Positions 1,128-28,639 of a stretch of 64,000 nucleotides of DNA are shown in pieces. Source of the stretch: Rheinheimera sp. EpRS3 (GTDB taxonomy: Bacteria > Pseudomonadota > Gammaproteobacteria > Enterobacterales > Alteromonadaceae). The stretch covers positions 620,001 to 684,000 of the forward strand of contig NZ_LNQS01000001.1 of the NCBI RefSeq assembly GCF_001513785.1. The letters run 5' to 3'. The stretch's first letter is position 1; each line of letters begins with the position of its first letter. The position numbers and the translations under genes were made by a program. A model generated the notes under the pieces. It saw only the letters and a list, made by a program, of their open reading frames with translations, made no database searches and was not told the DNA's origin.

Positions 1128-1523
1128 ATGCAAACTGTTAAGCCTGGTTTTAGTTTAATCGAGTTATTAATAGTACTGGCCATAGTGGGTATTCTGGCGG
1201 CGATATGCTACCCGTCTTATCAGCAGTATGTGTTGCGAAGCTATCGCGCAGAAGCAATATCACAGTTATTGCAACTGGCAAATGCTCAAGAGCAGCATTT
1301 AGCCGACTACGGTGCATACTCGGCAGATTTAGCTGTACTCGGTGTTAAGGCGTCAGAGCGCTATACATTTAATATTAACCTGTTTGCAGCGCAGCAGGAA
1401 TTTGAGCTGACAGCTCAGGCTCAGGGGCAGCAACAGGCCGATAGCGAATGCCAACTGTTTACATTGAACCACCTTGGACAACGTAACGGTGAGGATCTGC
1501 AAGCACAGGCTTGCTGGAATTAG
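1128..1523 (+). CDS. Type IV pilin-like protein, PilE family (minor pilin)
   Basis: 131 residues with a class III prepilin leader. A short basic leader ends in Gly before [18 protein letters not shown], giving the G-F cleavage site and the conserved Glu at position 5 of the mature protein used in filament assembly. The N-terminal helix is followed by [15 protein letters not shown], typical of PilE, and two Cys near the C terminus (SECQLF and QACWN) could form the usual D-loop disulfide. The ATG follows the stop of the PilY1-like gene with no gap. Its stop codon abuts the stop of the convergent FimT-like gene. It probably acts as a minor pilin in the inner membrane and pilus; major pilin status is unlikely given the context. 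Confidence 0.82.
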
Positions 1524-2030
1524 TCAGGCCGGGCAAGGTGTGGCGACCTCAGTTAACCTGCTACGGCCAGCTTGATTTACGGTAAGCCGGTAATGCCACT
1601 TATAGCTTTGTTGCGGGCAATAGTAAAAAGTACCGTTTTCAAAACCATTTAAACTACCATCCCGCCGGAATGTTATGGCTTCGCGGTTATAGATTAGTTT
1701 ATGACGCGGATCAATTGCGGGTATTTCGCGCAATAGGGTGCGCTCGTTAGTATCTGGATAAAGCATTGATAATTGTACTGGTACAGTTTGCCACTGTGCT
1801 TCACATTTCCCCTCAACGGCGGGGCATAGTTGTACTGGTAAGTTACTGCTGGTGGCTGCAACACGGGCAAAAGCCAGATGCTGGCTAAACTGGCGGACAT
1901 AAGCGGTAGCCCGCTGGCGATCGATAAATTCAGCCATTGCCGGTACTGCAACAGTGACAAAAATGATCAGAATGGCCAGCGTAATCATCAGCTCTGGTAA
2001 GCTAAATCCCCGGCTTGTCTTTAATGACAT
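1524..2030 (-). CDS. GspH/FimT-type pseudopilin
   Basis: A 168-residue prepilin-like protein. I chose the internal ATG at 2030 because AAGGAG sits about 7 nt upstream and the protein then begins MSLKTSRGFSLPELMITL, a normal class III leader with Gly before FSLPE and Glu5. The longer reading from 2072 would put 14 unlikely residues in front. After the hydrophobic helix comes the GspH/FimT-like region (FARVAATSSNLPVQLCP, then FRRDGSLNG, with Cys residues near the C terminus). FimT proteins are minor pilins that help prime pilus assembly and, in some species, bind DNA for uptake. It is convergent with pilE, rather than in the usual single-strand minor pilin cluster. Confidence 0.8.
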   Translation of the reverse strand: MSLKTSRGFSLPELMITLAILIIFVTVAVPAMAEFIDRQRATAYVRQFSQHLAFARVAATSSNLPVQLCPAVEGKCEAQWQTVPVQLSMLYPDTNERTLLREIPAIDPRHKLIYNREAITFRRDGSLNGFENGTFYYCPQQSYKWHYRLTVNQAGRSRLTEVATPCPA

Positions 2031-2100
2031 ACAACGCTCCTTGCAACTATTGCCCTGCAAAAAGCGTAGCATTTATTATTTTAATGTAAAATAATTGCTT

Positions 2101-2928
2101 CTAATCGTATATTGTCGGGATCGGCTGGCGTTTATGCTGGGTTTTCAGATAAATGCCAATCAGTTTTTCACTAACCTCAGCAGATACGGTTTTACCTTCA
2201 AGGAAATCATCAATTTGCTCGTAAGTTAAGCCAAGTGCTGCCTCATCTGCTTTTTGTGGTGCTAAACATTCTAAATCGGCAGTTGGCGTTTTGCTTACCA
2301 GCACATCTGGTGCCCCCAGTGTTTTACCCACTAAACGCACCTGGCGTTTACTTAAGCCAAACAGCGGTGCTAAATCGCAGGCGCCATCGCCCCATTTGGT
2401 ATAAAAACCGGTAATGTTTTCAGCGGAATGATCGGTACCCAGCACTAAGCCTCCAAGCAGGGCTGCGATATGATACTGAATCACCATACGGGTGCGGGCC
2501 TTTACATTACCTCTGGCAAAGTCGGCCTGAGCCTCACTGGCGGTAGCCAGGCCATCAGCAGCCATAGCACTAAAGGTTGCCTGATGAATGGCATCTGCAC
2601 CCGGTTGTACATTTACCGATAACGCTTTACTTGGCTGAATAAAATCAACTGCCATCTGGGCTTCGGCTTCATCTTTTTGCGTAGCGTATGGCAGGCGCAC
2701 AGCAATAAACTGATAACCACTACCGGTTTCGTTCAGCTCATCTATAGCCAACTGGGCTAAACGGCCACAAGTAGTAGAGTCGATACCACCGCTGATGCCC
2801 AGTACCAGTGTTTTCATGCCTGAGGCGCTAAGACGTTGCTTAATAAAATCGACCCGGCGGCGGATCTCAAATTGCGGATCTATCTGCGGTAGCACCCGCA
2901 TTTCGGCAATAATCTGTGCTGCATTCAT
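2101..2928 (-). CDS. nadE: NH3-dependent NAD+ synthetase
   Basis: 275 residues, the same length as E. coli NadE. It catalyses the last step of NAD biosynthesis, amidating deamido-NAD with ammonia and ATP. The PP-loop ATP pyrophosphatase motif [19 protein letters not shown] is at about residues 43-61. Further family motifs are [26 protein letters not shown] (shown in part: the GTDHSAEN segment), [15 protein letters not shown] and TPTADLE. No glutaminase domain is present, so it is the short ammonia-dependent type. It lies alone on the minus strand behind the FimT-like gene, about 70 bp away, without an obvious operon partner. Confidence 0.97.
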
Positions 2929-3062
2929 ACTATTTTGGCCTCTGCTGAAAATACCAGTCTATCTTATCGTGTTTTACCCTCAGCAGATCAAGTGATTCTT
3001 AGTGATTAACTGCTGAACAGCTTCCGGCCTTGTATTATACTGCCAATACCACCGACGCTTAA

Positions 3063-3416
<354 letters not shown>

Positions 3417-8332: not shown

Positions 8333-9858
8333 AGCTGCTCCAGACGGTTTAACGTGTCGGCAGCTTTGGCCAGAATGGCGGTTTTGTCGCTGTCACTGCG
8401 TTTTTGCCAGTTAGCAAAGGCCAGTGCCAGGCGCGGGTTAGCGCCAAATTGCTGCTGATGGCGGTGAAGAAAGTCCCAGTACAGTGCATTAAACGGACAG
8501 GCATCGGTTTGCGTGGTATGTTTAACCTCGTATGCGCAGTTTTTGCAATAATTGCTCATCCGGTTGATGTAAGCACCACTGGCGGCATAGGGCTTGGATG
8601 CCATTACACCACCATCGGCAAATAATGCCATACCAAGGGTGTTGGGCAATTCCACCCATTCGTAGGCGTCGGCATAAACGGCCAGATACCAGTCGGTAAC
8701 CTGCTCAACCGACAGGCCGGCCAGCAGCGCGAAATTACCGGTGATCATTAAGCGGTGAATATGGTGCGAGTAAGCATGATCAATAGTGCTTTTTACGGCC
8801 TGCTGCATACAGCGCATTTGCGTGTTGCCATGCCAGTAAAAGCCCGGTAAAGCGCGTTCAGCGTTTAAACTGTTGTGTTGCTTGTAGTCCGGCATCAGCA
8901 GCCAGTACAGGCCGCGCACATATTCTCGCCAGCCAATCAGCTGGCGGATAAAACCCTCTGCGGCATTAAGCGGCACTAAGCCCTGCTGATAGGCCAATTG
9001 CACTTTATTACACATCCAGCGCACATCCAGCAGGCCACAATTTAGATATACCGAGCAAATGCTATGAAACAAAAACGGTTGGTCAAGCAGCATGGCATCC
9101 TGGTAATCGCCAAACCGGGGCAGTTGCTGTTGCACAAAATGTAAAAAGGCATGCCTTGCATCTTTGCCGGTAACGGCATAGCTAAAGTTATCAGCATCGC
9201 CCATATTTGCGGCAAAATGCTGGTTAACCAGCGCCATTACCTCTGCCGTGATATCGTCGGGTATAAAGTGCAGTGGCACAATTTGCTGTAAATCTTGCGG
9301 GCAGGCTTTACGGTTATCGGCGTCATAGTTCCATTTGCCTCCTTCGGGTGTATCGCCTTGCATTAGCAAGCCGGTATAGCGGCGCATTTCGCGGTAAAAG
9401 TATTCCATCCGTAGTTGCTTTTTACCCTGGGCCCAGCGCGCAAAACGCGGTAAGTCACAGATAAAACGGTCATCAGACAGTATTTCTGTTGGCACAGGAA
9501 AATGCTGTTGCCAGCTGTTAATTTCCTGCTGCAGGCGGTATTCACCACACTGTGTTATCAGGATGCTTTGCAAGTGAGGGTGTTGCGCCAAAGCATGCTG
9601 CACGGCATCGCCGATGCATTTTATCTGGCTTTGGCTATCATAATGGATATAACAAACAGTATGGCCTTGCTGTCGCAGCACCGCGGCAAAGTGGCGCATA
9701 GCGCTGAAAATCAGAATAATTTTGTGTTTGTGGTGTTGCACATAACTGGCCTCTGCTGCTACTTCTGCCAGCAGCAGCACGTCATCTGCTGTTATGTTTT
9801 GCAAGCTCGACAGCGCCGGGCTTAGCTGATCGCCTAAAATTACAATAAGTCTGGCCAT
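8329..9858 (-). CDS. Iron-sulfur (6-4) photolyase, PhrB/FeS-BCP type
   Basis: 509 residues. The N-terminal half is the cryptochrome/photolyase-related domain (RLIVILGDQLSP), the C-terminal half the FAD-binding helical domain (IRQLIGWREYVRGLYW, ANFALLAGLS-like region, GGVMASKPYAASGAYINRM). Cysteines at 350, 438, 441 and 454 (MRCMQ, YCKNC, DACPF) occupy the positions of the 4Fe-4S ligands of Agrobacterium PhrB, a prokaryotic (6-4) photolyase. Function is therefore probably light-driven repair of (6-4) photoproducts. It is first in the operon. Its ATG lies about 130 bp from the divergent ZrgA-like gene, so the promoters share that gap. Confidence 0.9.
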   Translation of the reverse strand: MARLIVILGDQLSPALSSLQNITADDVLLLAEVAAEASYVQHHKHKIILIFSAMRHFAAVLRQQGHTVCYIHYDSQSQIKCIGDAVQHALAQHPHLQSILITQCGEYRLQQEINSWQQHFPVPTEILSDDRFICDLPRFARWAQGKKQLRMEYFYREMRRYTGLLMQGDTPEGGKWNYDADNRKACPQDLQQIVPLHFIPDDITAEVMALVNQHFAANMGDADNFSYAVTGKDARHAFLHFVQQQLPRFGDYQDAMLLDQPFLFHSICSVYLNCGLLDVRWMCNKVQLAYQQGLVPLNAAEGFIRQLIGWREYVRGLYWLLMPDYKQHNSLNAERALPGFYWHGNTQMRCMQQAVKSTIDHAYSHHIHRLMITGNFALLAGLSVEQVTDWYLAVYADAYEWVELPNTLGMALFADGGVMASKPYAASGAYINRMSNYCKNCAYEVKHTTQTDACPFNALYWDFLHRHQQQFGANPRLALAFANWQKRSDSDKTAILAKAADTLNRLEQL

Positions 9859-23612: not shown

Positions 23613-24725
23613 TTAATTTTTTTCAGCTTCCTGTTTCTCATCAGCCATCGATGAAAAATCGATAATATCTTCAAGATTCAATTTGTAAGCTTCGATAAAA
23701 GCGTTTCTCAGCAGCCCTGCCAAGGCTTTTAATCTGGAGACATCCGGCTCGCTAAAATTACCGCTGACAGGAATCCGGGTCGCGATCAGGTTTTGTTCAC
23801 TGTTCTCCAGCAGTGTGGCGAACATGGCCGAAACACCCTCAACAAATATCTGCAGGGTATTCTCGTCGCCTTCTATCACATCTTTTACCACGTCTTCTTT
23901 CCAGGAGAAAATTTCCAGGTTGTAAATGCCAAACTTTACATAACCATTTAGCCGGCCGTTATCGCTGGCCAGCTCAGTTGCCAGTTCAAACTCGCCGGCT
24001 TCTACGTCAAACGGGGCATATATTTTAATAATATTGGCTGTCTCGGCAGTAGGCATTCTGTCCATTTTCAGATTGATATCAAACATCGGTAACTTTACAT
24101 TCGGATTAAACTTACCTTGGATGATAAAAGGGGTCTGCGTGGCCACCATACCGCTAAAATCGACTTCCGTCAGCAATTCTGACTTTGCGTCATTGTGCAG
24201 GTTAACAATCTCGCCTTCTACCTGGCTCAAAATCAGCTCACCAAGCACATCTTTGGCAATAGCATTAAACTCGATTTTGCCATCATGGATTGACAACTTA
24301 TCAATGGAGAACAGGGTTAAGTTATTTGCCAGACCAATCCAGGTGCGCTCATCCAGCACCGCATCCTCGGTGATGTCTTCCTGCCCGGCTCGGTCCTGTG
24401 CCATTATTACAGGCTGGTGAAATGCCATAGTGCTAACTATTTCACCATCGGCCAGCGCCGCCCAGGACAACTGAATATCAATGCGCTCGGCTGAAAACAG
24501 CGGCAGCTCGCCTTTGTCGTTAAGCTGATTAATTTCTATCTGTTTAATAACATAACCACCACGCCAAAGCGCCAAATCGATATCCCGCACCTGGCCGCTA
24601 ATACCTTCCTGCTGTTCCAGTAGCGAATTGACATACCATACCATCACAGGTGGCAGGGCTACTCTTACTGCTAGTAATACTAAAACCACAGCCAGCATGA
24701 TTTTTACACTGTTAGATAATCTCAT
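23613..24725 (-). CDS. DUF748/AsmA-like envelope protein
   Basis: 370 residues with one N-terminal membrane helix (IMLAVVLVLLAVRVALPPVMVW) and a long periplasmic region of beta-type repeats. Phrases such as DIDLALWRGGYVIKQIEI and IDKLSIHDGKIEFNAIAKD fit DUF748, whose members resemble AsmA/TamB lipid-transfer proteins. It stands just upstream of mlaA on the same strand (about 50 bp), so a shared envelope-lipid role is plausible. Precise function unknown. The region beyond its start marks the edge of the ssrA island. Confidence 0.75.
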   Translation of the reverse strand: MRLSNSVKIMLAVVLVLLAVRVALPPVMVWYVNSLLEQQEGISGQVRDIDLALWRGGYVIKQIEINQLNDKGELPLFSAERIDIQLSWAALADGEIVSTMAFHQPVIMAQDRAGQEDITEDAVLDERTWIGLANNLTLFSIDKLSIHDGKIEFNAIAKDVLGELILSQVEGEIVNLHNDAKSELLTEVDFSGMVATQTPFIIQGKFNPNVKLPMFDINLKMDRMPTAETANIIKIYAPFDVEAGEFELATELASDNGRLNGYVKFGIYNLEIFSWKEDVVKDVIEGDENTLQIFVEGVSAMFATLLENSEQNLIATRIPVSGNFSEPDVSRLKALAGLLRNAFIEAYKLNLEDIIDFSSMADEKQEAEKN

Positions 24726-25029: not shown

Positions 25030-25650
25030 TTATCTGTCATCTTCTGATAAAAGTTGCGCGACAAGCAAGTGCACACTAGTCGTTGGGACTGTATCTATAG
25101 GTGTATCTGTGTTTAATACGTTGCCATGTGCGACTGCCAAATGCACATTCTGTTTAAAGTAATCCGTGTCATACCTTGCTTTACTGTATGTAGGCATCAT
25201 CTTTTTCAATTCAGCGTCGCAAATTTGCTTGTTTAATGGTGCTTTTTTTTGTGCTTGATGTAGCAGCAACCAAAATTCAAAGCATGGATTACTGAGAATA
25301 AAATTGATCTCTTTTCTTTGACACTCAGCCTGAATTGCAACTAGTGTTTCGCGAGGCCACGAGTCTCTATCAATTACTAACCATAACTCTTTGTTTTGAG
25401 CATTATTTTCAGTCTTGTACTTTTGTAAGCGTTCGAAAACTTTATCAGGAGATGATTGACCCCTCTTGGTTTCAAGAACTGGCATTCTTATATTTTTTCT
25501 GCCAAAAAGGTCAGTAAAATATAACTTTTCTGTTATCTGCCCTTCAGTTGCAATAACATATAGAGGTTTGACGCTCCATAATGTTTTTTCTCTGACTAAC
25601 GGTTTTTGTCTTCTGCCCAAGCTATTACCTATTAAGTCTCTTGAAATCAC
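25030..25650 (-). CDS. RloB-family TOPRIM-like protein
   Basis: 206 residues from a GTG at 25650. A TTG at 25620, just after the RloA stop and behind AGG, is an alternative start that gives the protein beginning LGRRQKPLV. Motifs seen are VIATEGQITEKLYF (the acidic EG..TE block), LWLVIDRDSW (paired acidic residues) and ILSNPCFEFWLLLHQ, the recognised RloB signature. RloB-like proteins have a TOPRIM-related fold and are predicted nucleases that partner an AAA ATPase. The gene overlaps the end of the ATPase gene by 26 nt. A defence role against phage is inferred from the family and the island setting. Confidence 0.82.
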   Translation of the reverse strand: MISRDLIGNSLGRRQKPLVREKTLWSVKPLYVIATEGQITEKLYFTDLFGRKNIRMPVLETKRGQSSPDKVFERLQKYKTENNAQNKELWLVIDRDSWPRETLVAIQAECQRKEINFILSNPCFEFWLLLHQAQKKAPLNKQICDAELKKMMPTYSKARYDTDYFKQNVHLAVAHGNVLNTDTPIDTVPTTSVHLLVAQLLSEDDR

Positions 25651-26971
25651 CTACAAATGGAATAGCACCATAACGACCAAGTAAATAATCCTTTCTTATG
25701 TCTTTATCATACCGCGGCTGAAAATTATTAAGCGAATACAAAGAAGAAATACCGCTTTCGCTCTTTTGAACAAACCAAATTTCGTCTCTTCTTACTAATG
25801 AAACATCGAGTAAAGAAGTCTCATGTGTCGTAACAATCAATTGTGACTGGGTGTTTTTTTCTGACTCTAGATGTTCACGCACAAGTAGACGAGTTATATG
25901 TGGGTGTAAGCTTCGGTCAATTTCATCAATTATGTATACACTCGGCTCTTTAGAATATGCCATTTCGTACAAAGATGGAGTTAATTCAATTAACCTCCTT
26001 GTACCATCAGATTCTTCTTCTAGATCGAACGACACGTTTAAGTCTTGAGTTTGACATTTGTGTGTTGTTGATAGCTTAAACGCAACTAGTTCGCCATCTT
26101 GCTTCTTTATCACTAGACGACGTCCTGCATCAGGATCTGTTGCAAGTGCAGCTTCATCGTTGTCAAGGTCCTCTTTAAGTCTATCAAGTATTTGAGGCGG
26201 AAGACCGGCAGATTTGATGGAATCCAACTGTTCCGTTCTTATTGCATCTATACCGGTGTCAGCTAAATGTAACACCTTTTGAAGGTAGTCTTTAAAGGTA
26301 GAGTCCTGACTAATTTTAAACTCAATACCACTATGCATGGTTGAAGGCGAAATTACTTTTAGAGTCCGGTCAAACCAGTTAAATACGTCAGAAAAGTCTT
26401 CAATGTTTCGCTCAATAGATTCCGTTAGAAACAGTTGATTTTGACGAGTGCCTCTTGATGTAAATTGCAAGAACGATTGCTCATCGGTAGATTTTTCTTG
26501 TAGTGTTTTACCAAATGTGAATTCGTCGTGATTTGAGGTGCCATGTGCTCTAGAAAAAATTAGTGTCTCTTTGTCTTTTGTTAATCTAAAAAGCCATTCC
26601 GATTCAACATAACTATTTTTAAGTTCAAAACCATAAGCATATATATTACCCTGCACCAAAATTTCGAATTCGAATCTTGATGATGGATTAGTTTCTTGCT
26701 TACAAAGCTTGAACAATGGTAAATCAAACTTTTTATTTGGCCCTTTACCTCGTAGTATTAAATTTCTGGCAAATTCGATTGCTTTGACCAGATTGCTTTT
26801 TCCTGAGGCATTTGCACCATAAATAATTGCTCCACGCAAAATGTTCACGAGGTTCGTCTGCTTAGTTTTATATACCTGACTTGGGTGTGCCCGTTCTTTC
26901 GAAGGGATCATCGACAACTCAACTTCATCAAGAAATGAATTAAAGTTTGAGACTGTGAATCTAATTAACAT
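25625..26971 (-). CDS. RloA-type AAA ATPase (ABC-like, OLD-related)
   Basis: 448 residues. Begins LIRFTVSNFNSFLDEVELSM, the usual start of this AAA_15/AAA_21 ATPase group. Walker A is YGANASGKSNLVKAIEFA (about residues 53-70), Walker B VYIIDEIDRSLHPHITRLL, and an H-loop follows in IVTTHETSLLD. An insertion of about 200 residues sits between the two ATPase halves. It is paired with RloB, and such ATPase plus TOPRIM-like pairs occur among phage-defence systems (compare PARIS and OLD). The ATG at 26971 follows a palindrome. AT-rich composition suggests recent transfer. Confidence 0.86.
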   Translation of the reverse strand: MLIRFTVSNFNSFLDEVELSMIPSKERAHPSQVYKTKQTNLVNILRGAIIYGANASGKSNLVKAIEFARNLILRGKGPNKKFDLPLFKLCKQETNPSSRFEFEILVQGNIYAYGFELKNSYVESEWLFRLTKDKETLIFSRAHGTSNHDEFTFGKTLQEKSTDEQSFLQFTSRGTRQNQLFLTESIERNIEDFSDVFNWFDRTLKVISPSTMHSGIEFKISQDSTFKDYLQKVLHLADTGIDAIRTEQLDSIKSAGLPPQILDRLKEDLDNDEAALATDPDAGRRLVIKKQDGELVAFKLSTTHKCQTQDLNVSFDLEEESDGTRRLIELTPSLYEMAYSKEPSVYIIDEIDRSLHPHITRLLVREHLESEKNTQSQLIVTTHETSLLDVSLVRRDEIWFVQKSESGISSLYSLNNFQPRYDKDIRKDYLLGRYGAIPFVGDFKRLNR

Positions 26972-26985
26972 GCTTTACTCTGTTT

Positions 26986-27062
26986 AAGAGAAATTTTCTC
27001 TTTTATTACGCATTTCTGGCTTTATATCAAGAGGAAAGTCTCATTTTGAGAGAATTTTTCTC
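26986..27062. promoter_or_regulatory. Palindromic sites upstream of rloA
   Basis: AAGAGAAATTTTCTCTT (26986-27002) is a perfect palindrome about 15 bp upstream of the RloA-like start. GAGAGAATTTTTCTC (27048-27062) is a similar imperfect copy, 61 bp away centre to centre. They may be operators or part of the promoter. Which protein binds is unknown; the RloA/RloB pair or the nearby AbrB-type antitoxin are candidates. Confidence 0.4.
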
Positions 27063-27169: not shown

Positions 27170-27340
27170 TTAATGAGTGTCTATTAGATTAGGGGAAGTC
27201 CAGTTGGCAGCAGGGGAGAGTATTCGGTCTGTACCATTCGCCCGCACGGTTACTTGCGCAATGTCATCCGGAAAGTGTACTTCAAGCGGAAGTTCAACTA
27301 TTTGGGAGTTGTTATGGTTTATCACCTTGCCGGTTGTCAT
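27170..27340 (-). CDS. Truncated VapB-like (AbrB-fold) antitoxin, no toxin
   Basis: About 56 residues from the ATG at 27340, preceded by GGAGGT at good spacing. It reads MTTGKVINHNNSQIVELP and then EVHFPDDIAQV and DRILSPA, matching the AbrB/SpoVT swapped-hairpin DNA-binding domain of VapB antitoxins. Family members are usually about 75 residues with a C-terminal toxin-binding segment (WDSFF-like); here the tail is short and different (NWTSPNLIDTH). No PIN-domain VapC follows, and only about 200 bp remains before rloA. It is probably a relic or a repurposed regulator. A reading from 27376 would add 12 residues. Confidence 0.6.
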   Translation of the reverse strand: MTTGKVINHNNSQIVELPLEVHFPDDIAQVTVRANGTDRILSPAANWTSPNLIDTH

Positions 27341-27410
27341 ACACACCTCCGTTGACTGGGCAACGCAGCGAAGCAAAATATTGCCCGCTGCCTTTGACTG
27401 TTATATGCAT

Positions 27411-27926
27411 TTATTTGATATTTCGGTTTACGAAGTTATCCAGCTCAGAAACCGACTTAACAATGTACACTGACTTTCTATCTGACAATGCTTCTAATCT
27501 GGTGATGAAATCCTCATTCCAGAATTTTGGACATAGCCGTAAAACTTTATAGCTCTGAAGAGTGCCTTTTAGTACCGAACTGCCATCAGGCCAACCTTCA
27601 GGTTTTACGACAAGCCCTTTTAGCAGTCTCTTAGTTACAAACCAGTAGCTTGTTAAGTATGGCAGATCAACATAAACCAATGTATCAGCTGCTTCTAAAC
27701 GCTGGTGAAATGAATTTATTGGCCCAAACCCATCAATGATCCAACTTTCAGACGATAAGATACGCTTATGTGCTTCATCGAATGAACTGCTATCTACCAG
27801 CTCCCCATTCGGTTTGTACACAATCGAATCCAGCTGATGCAACGGTATACCAGTTGCCAACGCCAGTGCTTTGCTTAAAGTAGATTTACCGCTTCCGGGC
27901 TTACCAAAAACTGCTATTTTTTTCAT
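27411..27926 (-). CDS. Small P-loop kinase (adenylate kinase/FlaR-like)
   Basis: About 171 residues from the ATG at 27926, which has GAGG upstream and gives KKIAVFGKPGSGKSTLSKALA with a Walker A motif GKPGSGKST. Reading from 27977 would add 17 residues over a hairpin. Other markers are LHQLDSIVYKPNGEL, WIIDGFG and TLVYVDLPYLTSYWFVTKRLL, as in adenylate-kinase-related proteins often annotated as DNA topology modulation protein FlaR. It probably binds a nucleotide and a small phosphoacceptor. Located in the island; involvement in defence is speculative. Confidence 0.72.
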   Translation of the reverse strand: MKKIAVFGKPGSGKSTLSKALALATGIPLHQLDSIVYKPNGELVDSSSFDEAHKRILSSESWIIDGFGPINSFHQRLEAADTLVYVDLPYLTSYWFVTKRLLKGLVVKPEGWPDGSSVLKGTLQSYKVLRLCPKFWNEDFITRLEALSDRKSVYIVKSVSELDNFVNRNIK

Positions 27927-27969
27927 ACTGCCTCTTTTATATAAATTATTCCCATAAGGCAGAAACAGA

Positions 27970-27994
27970 AAACCCACCTCTATGGGGTGGGTTT
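27970..27994 (-). terminator. Hairpin upstream of the island kinase gene
   Basis: AAACCCACC, TCTATGG and GGTGGGTTT form a 9-bp stem. Read on the minus strand it is followed by a T-rich stretch and could end transcripts coming from ssrA before the kinase gene. Its orientation is a guess. Confidence 0.45.
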
Positions 27995-28270: not shown

Positions 28271-28302
28271 TTGCTATTTGGTGGAGCTGGCGGGAGTTGA
28301 AC
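28245..28302. repeat. Right attachment-like copy: genuine ssrA 3' end and terminator
   Basis: 58 bp that cover the terminator and the last part of ssrA. It matches the copy at 24936-24993 at 55 of 58 positions and forms the ssrA-side end of the island. Confidence 0.8.
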
Positions 28303-28639
28303 CCGCGTCCGAAAAACCTACATCTTCGGTACTACATGCTTAGCACATTCATTTAGTTAACCCTATGAGCGCCGAATGGCAGGCTATCGTCGGGCGAGCC
28401 TGATTGGTTTTAACGTGTTGTCTCCAGGCGAAGACGCGACGCGATTCTGTTAGGGGTGATCTTCCAGAGTCTCAGCTTACAGACATGCGTGAGGGGAAGA
28501 GCTATCTACTGCCTATTAAGCAGCGATTGCGTATGTTTCGTCGTTTGCGACTAGTTTTTTGCGGTTTTTTTACGAGGCCTACCGCACCTCGGCATGCACC
28601 TAGGAGTTCGTGAATCCCGTCGAATCCAGAATCAGCCCC
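28279..28639 (-). ncRNA. ssrA: Transfer-messenger RNA
   Basis: 361 nt on the minus strand, starting GGGGCTGATTCTGGATTCGA and ending CCACCA, with the encoded CCA. The 3' half has the T arm (GGTTCAACTCCC) and the 5' half the matching tRNA-like part. The reading frame at 28516-28548 gives the tag ANDETYAIAA followed by TAA. tmRNA rescues stalled ribosomes with SmpB, whose gene lies 160 bp upstream. The 3' end is the boundary of the genomic island and stays intact. Confidence 0.97.

Follow-up and report, generated by a model that had tools for sequence, protein, structure and literature searches.

An AbiL-type RloA/RloB gene pair in a small ssrA insert of Rheinheimera sp. EpRS3, with a likely role in phage defence

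What do two overlapping, AT-rich genes behind a tmRNA gene do for their host, and how did they come to lie there? The question is raised by a 64,000-nt stretch of the Rheinheimera sp. EpRS3 genome (NZ_LNQS01000001.1, positions 620,001 to 684,000), here called the window, in which the gene for an ABC-type ATPase, RloA, overlaps that for a partner protein, RloB. A first-pass annotation had taken the two for a probable phage-defence pair, a role that AbiL family models and the ssrA setting support. The pair is of the AbiL (RloA/RloB) type, and AbiL, which that annotation did not name, is the closest known system. Our best explanation is a two-gene anti-phage system in which RloA would act as sensor and holder and RloB as a Toprim-like nuclease, more likely on host RNA than on phage DNA, the pair having arrived by horizontal transfer, carried in a small insert at ssrA. 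We give this explanation as a whole a probability of about 0.6. The two genes are:

25625-26971, minus strand: RloA, AbiLi-type ABC ATPase, 448 aa, ATG start, intact open reading frame (ORF)
25030-25650, minus strand: RloB, AbiLii-type Toprim-like protein, 206 aa, GTG start, intact ORF

The two intact frames overlap by 26 nt. RloA matches Pfam AAA_21 (1.3e-32), and its best PADLOC match is AbiLi (E 1.6e-88, 294.9 bits), with AriA models far weaker at 6.5e-34 and 1.2e-9. RloB matches the Pfam RloB family (PF13707, 2.4e-29), the sole Pfam family at E <= 0.001, and PADLOC AbiLii (1.7e-19), the sole PADLOC match at E <= 0.01. By PADLOC, Pfam and gene overlap, an RloB-family AbiLii protein is thus encoded in one operon with an AbiLi-family ATPase. 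The RloB start is the GTG as called, with alternative starts left undistinguished.

The ATPase keeps its conserved motifs. In an alignment of the window RloA with 39 relatives, the Walker A residues G52, N54, G57, and K58 are invariant, as are E320 and G323 of an ESDG stretch, D349-E350, H383 and, in the C-terminal region, Y429, G432, R433, and P438. The AlphaFold model of RloA has a mean predicted local distance difference test score (pLDDT) of 89.7. Structure comparison places the predicted fold near Rad50, SMC, and PtuA heads at Z 16-20: Rad50 4ncj (Z 20.5, root-mean-square deviation (rmsd) 3.7, 276 aligned), retron Ec83 9e8z (Z 18.4), and Septu 8eea (Z 17.1). TsOLD 6p74 is also among the Foldseek matches of RloA (E 1.3e-9).

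RloB contains the motifs TEGQITE, DRD, and SNPCFEFWLLLH in its translation, as had been claimed. Its conservation was read from two alignments, one of the window RloB with 21 relatives from a family-profile search (A1) and one with 54 relatives fetched through the pattern SxP[CK]FExWLL (A2); one viral row of A2 was fetched through FExWLLLH, which also fixes H131. E36, G37, E41, Y44, D94, P122, F124, W127, and H131 are invariant in A1, where D96, S120, and E125 stand at 90% or above. In A2 the invariant residues are E36, Y44, F45, P68, D94, D96, and N121. S120, P122, F124, E125, W127, L128, and L129 are invariant there by construction of the search pattern, and because the relatives were fetched through that very motif, the A2 invariance of S120-L129 is uninformative. 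All 55 A2 rows match AbiLii, having been picked as RloB relatives. The Glu and D-x-D of a Toprim-type site are therefore present in RloB, with E36 and D94 invariant in both alignments and D96 at 90% or above in A1 and invariant in A2.

The predicted fold agrees with this. The RloB model has a mean pLDDT of 86.5, and a second-look structural alignment ranks the TsOLD Toprim domain first (6p74, Z 8.4, rmsd 3.7, 129 aligned) and the BpOLD Toprim domain second (6nk8, Z 7.2, rmsd 4.5, 146 aligned); unrelated proteins reach Z values up to 6.5, and 7.2 and 6.5 count as tied. With moderate confidence, the overall predicted fold of RloB is that of Toprim, nearest the OLD Toprim domains, to which HHPred also relates RloB (excerpts of PMC10440598). 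The first-pass annotation had staked its claim on predicted structures resembling Toprim and an ABC-type ATPase, and the models agree with it, for RloB moderately. In TsOLD the metal ligands are E377, D431, and D433 together with D381, S478, and E480 (excerpts of PMC7049728). RloB residues E36, D94, and D96, with T40/E41, S120, and E125, are plausible counterparts, matched by inference. RloB relatives also carry an N-terminal tail of basic character, about 22 residues with a mean net charge of +6.4 (+3 or more in 52 of 55), which fits the binding of nucleic acid or of an acidic partner.

The two genes travel together. Among 133 loci from genome and viral contigs, RloA lies directly upstream of RloB in 125. 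In six of the remaining eight RloB is within 200 nt of the end of the examined stretch; in L150 an overlapping RloA falls outside the 300-nt distance cut by 4 nt, and in L144 no RloA was found within 1.5 kb of RloB. Among 37 loci from the whole-genome search, the window's included, 34 have an RloA homologue, some matches being weak. Measured on first-start ORFs, the two genes are separated by -173 to +59 nt (median -1), spacing as in coupled translation.

The distribution of the pair is patchy. RloB occurs in 30 of 369 genomes of the class and in 8 of 60 genomes of relatives, 6 of these above the family cut-off, the window genome being counted in both. The window query, itself divergent, matches 12 plasmid records out of 72,556 and a single phage record out of 50,697. 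A 3.7-kb mobilizable plasmid of E. coli, NZ_CP070130.1, carries RloAB at 1439-3404 beside rop, mobA, and a replication gene. Since RloAB is the only annotated cargo of so small a plasmid (the PLSDB tables are incomplete), the pair can probably stand alone. The closest RloA among 394 genomes of the order is 43% identical to that of the window. In a 76-row RloA tree the window gene falls in an unresolved set of 21 rows (98/96), which also holds sequences of Bacteroidota, Fibrobacterota, Spirochaetota, and Chloroflexota and, on a very long branch, the gene of the congener G009; RloA genes of two other congeners (G003 and G017) lie in another deep part. The tree speaks for horizontal transfer and leaves sister relations unsettled.

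How might such a pair work? The best explanation starts from the operon, the intact motifs, the family matches, and the predicted folds, and a role in phage defence is likely. RloA, an ABC ATPase and probably a multimer, would hold RloB inactive and sense infection. Once infection is sensed, RloA would release or activate RloB, a metal-dependent Toprim-like nuclease that would then cut nucleic acid. The target would be an essential host RNA such as tRNA sooner than phage DNA, and cell growth would stop before the phage matures. In this scheme the restraint of RloB by RloA, the trigger, the activity of RloB as a nuclease, its substrate, and the protection from phage are our inferences. AbiL is said to act through AbiLii as a Toprim_OLD effector (excerpts of PMC10440598). 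RNA seems the likelier target because an AbiLii is toxic without phage, as reported for the Fusobacterium protein in E. coli (excerpts of PMC3985639).

The same folds give an alternative its footing. RloAB might serve the same defence role by directly attacking the DNA of incoming phages or plasmids, in the manner of OLD nucleases. The nearest folds to RloB are DNA-cutting OLD Toprim domains, RloA resembles the DNA-binding heads of Rad50 and SMC, and TsOLD degrades linear and supercoiled DNA (excerpts of PMC7049728). We consider direct DNA cutting unlikely, if the most serious competitor, given that AbiL is named an abortive-infection system, that the one AbiLii is toxic with no phage present (excerpts of PMC3985639), and that PARIS, the nearest well-studied two-gene architecture, cuts tRNA (excerpts of PMC12409363).

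Several observations count against the holder-and-nuclease scheme. Foldseek alone returned no match to the RloB model at E <= 0.001, and no solved chain matches RloB by sequence, the best profile match being a designed protein at E 0.14. The conservation of SNPCFExWLL in A2 is imposed by the search pattern. In the reported experiments Fusobacterium AbiLi failed to neutralise its AbiLii, and the AbiLii of L. lactis proved non-toxic to E. coli (excerpts of PMC3985639); simple holding of RloB fits poorly with both. Finally, the first-pass annotation had stated that such pairs are found in defence islands, a general statement that their surroundings count against. We collected 148 neighbouring proteins from 62 RloAB loci, taking at most three ORFs of 100-700 aa that lay no further than 2.5 kb away, and dropped eight from L130, L142, and L162 as repeats of L129, L132, and L153, whose coordinates and hosts are alike. 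Pfam assigned the remaining 140 proteins to 141 families, none in more than 4 proteins. The 25 families listed of these 141 include Methylase_S (2), N6_Mtase (1), AAA_15 (3), and AAA_21 (2) as possibly defence-linked. Few recognised defence families were thus seen beside RloAB elsewhere, as judged by the listed Pfam families only and with no control set.

The first-pass annotation had also placed the pair in an ssrA island, and an insert behind ssrA is indeed seen. Its features are:

28279-28639, minus strand: ssrA, the tmRNA gene, tag ANDETYAIAA
28239-28302: 64-nt unit made up of the final 24 nt of ssrA and a further 40 nt that hold its terminator; direct repeat and terminator-like site at the ssrA-side insert end
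27411-27977, minus strand: P-loop kinase-like ORF (AAA_18, PRK08118), 188 aa, between ssrA and the VapB remnant
27170-27376, minus strand: VapB-like antitoxin ORF, 68 aa
24930-24993: second copy of the 64-nt unit, 94% identical; direct repeat at the far insert end
23613-24725, minus strand: gene for a DUF748 protein, beyond the insert

The two copies of the 64-nt unit enclose 3.3 kb of AT-rich DNA, which hold the kinase-like ORF, the VapB remnant, RloA, and RloB. The pair is AT-rich as had been noted, with a GC content of 37.2% against a mean of 50.0% (standard deviation 1.9, lowest 44.7%) in 284 equal-length stretches outside the island. The insert is thus flanked by direct repeats of the ssrA 3' end, and family scans found no integrase among its four main ORFs. 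Tyrosine-integrase matches number five in a six-frame search of the genome, and the window's contig has none of them; serine recombinases were left unsearched genome-wide. One integrase match, at G000:C7:110665-111270, lies in a 343-aa frame of a length seen in integron integrases, and a chromosomal integron is possible there.

The kinase-like ORF matches Pfam AAA_18 (2.1e-4) and NCBIfam PRK08118 (1.2e-23), and the VapB-like ORF NCBIfam TA_anti_VapB (6.4e-10), all below cut-off. No VapC ORF was seen after the VapB-like ORF, which is probably the remnant of an earlier vapBC. About 150 nt of this region are common to the inserts of G014 and G029 at 83-85% identity, and an older vapBC may therefore once have filled the slot.

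Is this site used in the same way elsewhere in the genus? We examined 30 ssrA regions, the window's and those of 29 of 30 congeners (in G013 no full tmRNA was found); contigs end early for at least G009, G012, G016, and G027. G002 represents the empty site, with the 64-nt unit present once. The DUF748 gene begins 245 nt after ssrA there, and 245-250 nt after it in G002 and G007 taken together. A second copy of the ssrA tail occurs in 8 of the 30, as its last 20 nt in G000, G009, G014, G019, G025, and G029 and as the 64-nt unit in G018 and G030. In the remaining 22, the stretch examined contains no second copy; in several a core gene comes no more than about 450 nt after ssrA, and others have longer stretches.

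In G009 a 2.9-kb insert at the same ssrA site holds a second RloAB pair, whose RloA is 34% identical to the window's and whose RloB is diverged. Counted in nt from the end of ssrA at 8948, RloA lies at 804-2135 and RloB at 2140-2811. Over 402 nt that reach a little beyond the end of ssrA, the two genomes are identical. Because pairs so distant lie behind an identical ssrA, they almost certainly arrived separately. In G014 the ssrA-side flank is identical to the window over 444 nt, the far flank is 94% identical, and the insert is different. This insert carries, 1798-3875 nt after ssrA, a gene for an NA37-type nucleoid protein adjoining one for a RelA_SpoT-domain protein (a weak match to PDC-S33, 2.5e-8), possibly a two-gene defence candidate.

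Across the two-copy regions in which no integrase was seen, the cargo also includes VapBC (G025), an FRG-domain protein (G018, whose PDC-M18A sits beyond its second copy), and, 704-2088 nt after ssrA in G029, HicB with a HicA-like ORF recognised by eye, HicA giving no Pfam match. A third ORF of that set, of 142 aa, recalls a SecB-type chaperone by eye and has no Pfam or PADLOC match; the set is possibly a toxin-antitoxin-chaperone system. In other congeners ordinary genes occupy this stretch (GGDEF and amidohydrolase in G028, LigB and GST in G020), so the stretch behind ssrA is not purely a defence slot. Nor does RloAB generally sit at such genes. No tRNA or tmRNA gene was found near RloA/RloB in eight other loci (L072-L075 and L248-L251), and we dropped this position as a general feature of the pair; at L076, which matches RloB weakly, two tRNA-Phe genes lie at a distance of about 7 kb, and the G009 locus lies at ssrA.

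G019 has a 4.1-kb insert in which a GpA-type replication gene and a tyrosine integrase lie 84-3396 nt after ssrA; it could supply integrase to inserts that have none. An integrase also lies beside ssrA in G030, and likewise in G004, G016, and G017, which showed no second copy. The other six regions with two copies show no integrase among the ORFs scanned there, one of the scans having used two integrase seeds only. In G020 a 92-aa ORF 126 nt after ssrA resembles part of an integrase and is a decayed integrase gene. A bolder combined proposal would make RloB a tRNA-cutting Toprim effector held by an RloA multimer, in a separately evolved PARIS-like logic, and the 64-nt slot of this genus, formed by the ssrA 3' end and its terminator, a site for 2-4 kb integrase-less cassettes swapped by an integrase in trans, several of them carrying defence or toxin-antitoxin genes. 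Taken jointly, we regard this as tentative and rather improbable.

The contents of the slot also bear on what the pair is for. RloB could be a toxin and RloA its antitoxin, serving mainly to retain the insert, with defence secondary. VapBC and the HicB pair occupy the same slot in congeners, and NetFlax places RloB in a toxin-antitoxin network in which AAA partners are reported to neutralise toxins (excerpts of PMC10440598). This reading is distinctly unlikely: Fusobacterium AbiLi showed no antitoxicity (excerpts of PMC3985639), and RloA, a large ATPase whose ATP motifs are intact, goes beyond the need of a plain antitoxin. Least probable of all is that RloAB is a non-functional passenger of a decaying island, as the VapB remnant, the missing tyrosine integrase, and the 6% divergence of the second 64-nt unit might suggest, since both frames are intact and the ATP-site residues and the Toprim-type Glu and Asp are kept.

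Does the AbiL-type pair have its own control? The first-pass annotation had credited it with palindromic operators, and two sites lie upstream of RloA:

26988-27000: 13-nt palindrome, core of the 17-nt AAGAGAAAATTTCTCTT, possible operator
27050-27062: second 13-nt palindrome, with one mismatch to the other, possible operator

The two matching copies of the palindrome sequence GAGAAAAWTTCTC are the only exact sites in the window. Such a pair arose in 0 of 3000 dinucleotide shuffles and in 0 of 634 other 199-nt stretches of the window, in a test framed after the sites had been seen; the longest palindrome arm alone was reached by 3.7% of 1000 shuffles. The pair is real and rarer than chance, and its operator role is putative. 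That the sites belong to RloAB itself is weaker than claimed: they are local, no such pair occurs in 118 related upstream regions (200 nt) or in the 250 nt upstream of the G009 RloA, and we dropped paired palindromes as a feature of the family. None of the four scanned insert ORFs looks like a regulator, the VapB-like remnant aside, and the sites may serve a host regulator.

What the locus adds can be stated briefly. AbiL, PARIS, OLD, ssrA as a landing site for defence, and integrase-less ssrA islands are already described, and RloAB here adds a member. The open-licence literature, outside which most subscription papers lie, yielded no trigger, substrate, or structure for the RloAB pair. With an operon so compact and intact, E. 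coli offers a practical way to ask whether Toprim effectors under ATPase control act on tRNA beyond PARIS as well. Such cargo turns over at one small site behind ssrA, as the far-diverged second RloAB of a congener shows. We consider the finding sound, testable, and of moderate interest.

Set against known systems, the site comes first. ssrA is a landing site for defence cargo at hotspot 9 of E. coli (excerpts of PMC10121019) and at cDHS2 of P. aeruginosa (excerpts of PMC10250203), and Dehalococcoides has 15 ssrA islands without an integration module (excerpts of PMC3146451). The inserts described here share the varying cargo downstream of ssrA and, with some Dehalococcoides islands, the lack of integration genes. 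They differ in size (about 2-4 kb) and in that a 64-nt unit with the ssrA terminator in it bounds some of them.

Among the systems themselves, Septu and the retron PtuAB share with the window pair an ATPase, RloA resembling PtuA in sequence and fold, whereas PtuB is an HNH nuclease and RloB has no HNH match in Pfam. PARIS has separate genes for an ABC ATPase and a Toprim-like effector, as here. Its AriB-type effector is DUF4435, and RloB, of another effector family, has no AriB-type match in Pfam or PADLOC. We reject membership of PARIS on this sequence comparison, in which the reach of the AriB models to distant relatives is unchecked. In PARIS an AriA hexamer holds AriB, a tRNase, and frees it on meeting phage proteins (excerpts of PMC12409363), and AbiL has been placed beside PARIS among the ABC-plus-Toprim systems (excerpts of PMC12409363 and PMC10440598).

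AbiL itself, AbiLi/AbiLii of Lactococcus lactis (Deng 1999, cited in excerpts of PMC3985639 and PMC10440598), is a two-gene operon of an AAA ATPase and an RloB-family protein, and the window proteins match its PADLOC models. The window pair differs in its distant host and in lying in a chromosomal ssrA insert rather than on a plasmid. Class 1 OLD, represented by TsOLD, likewise joins an ABC ATPase to a Toprim domain, and the TsOLD Toprim domain is the best structural match to RloB. OLD is one polypeptide, whereas the window has two overlapping ORFs. Judged by the predicted folds, RloAB is best seen as in effect an OLD enzyme split into two genes.

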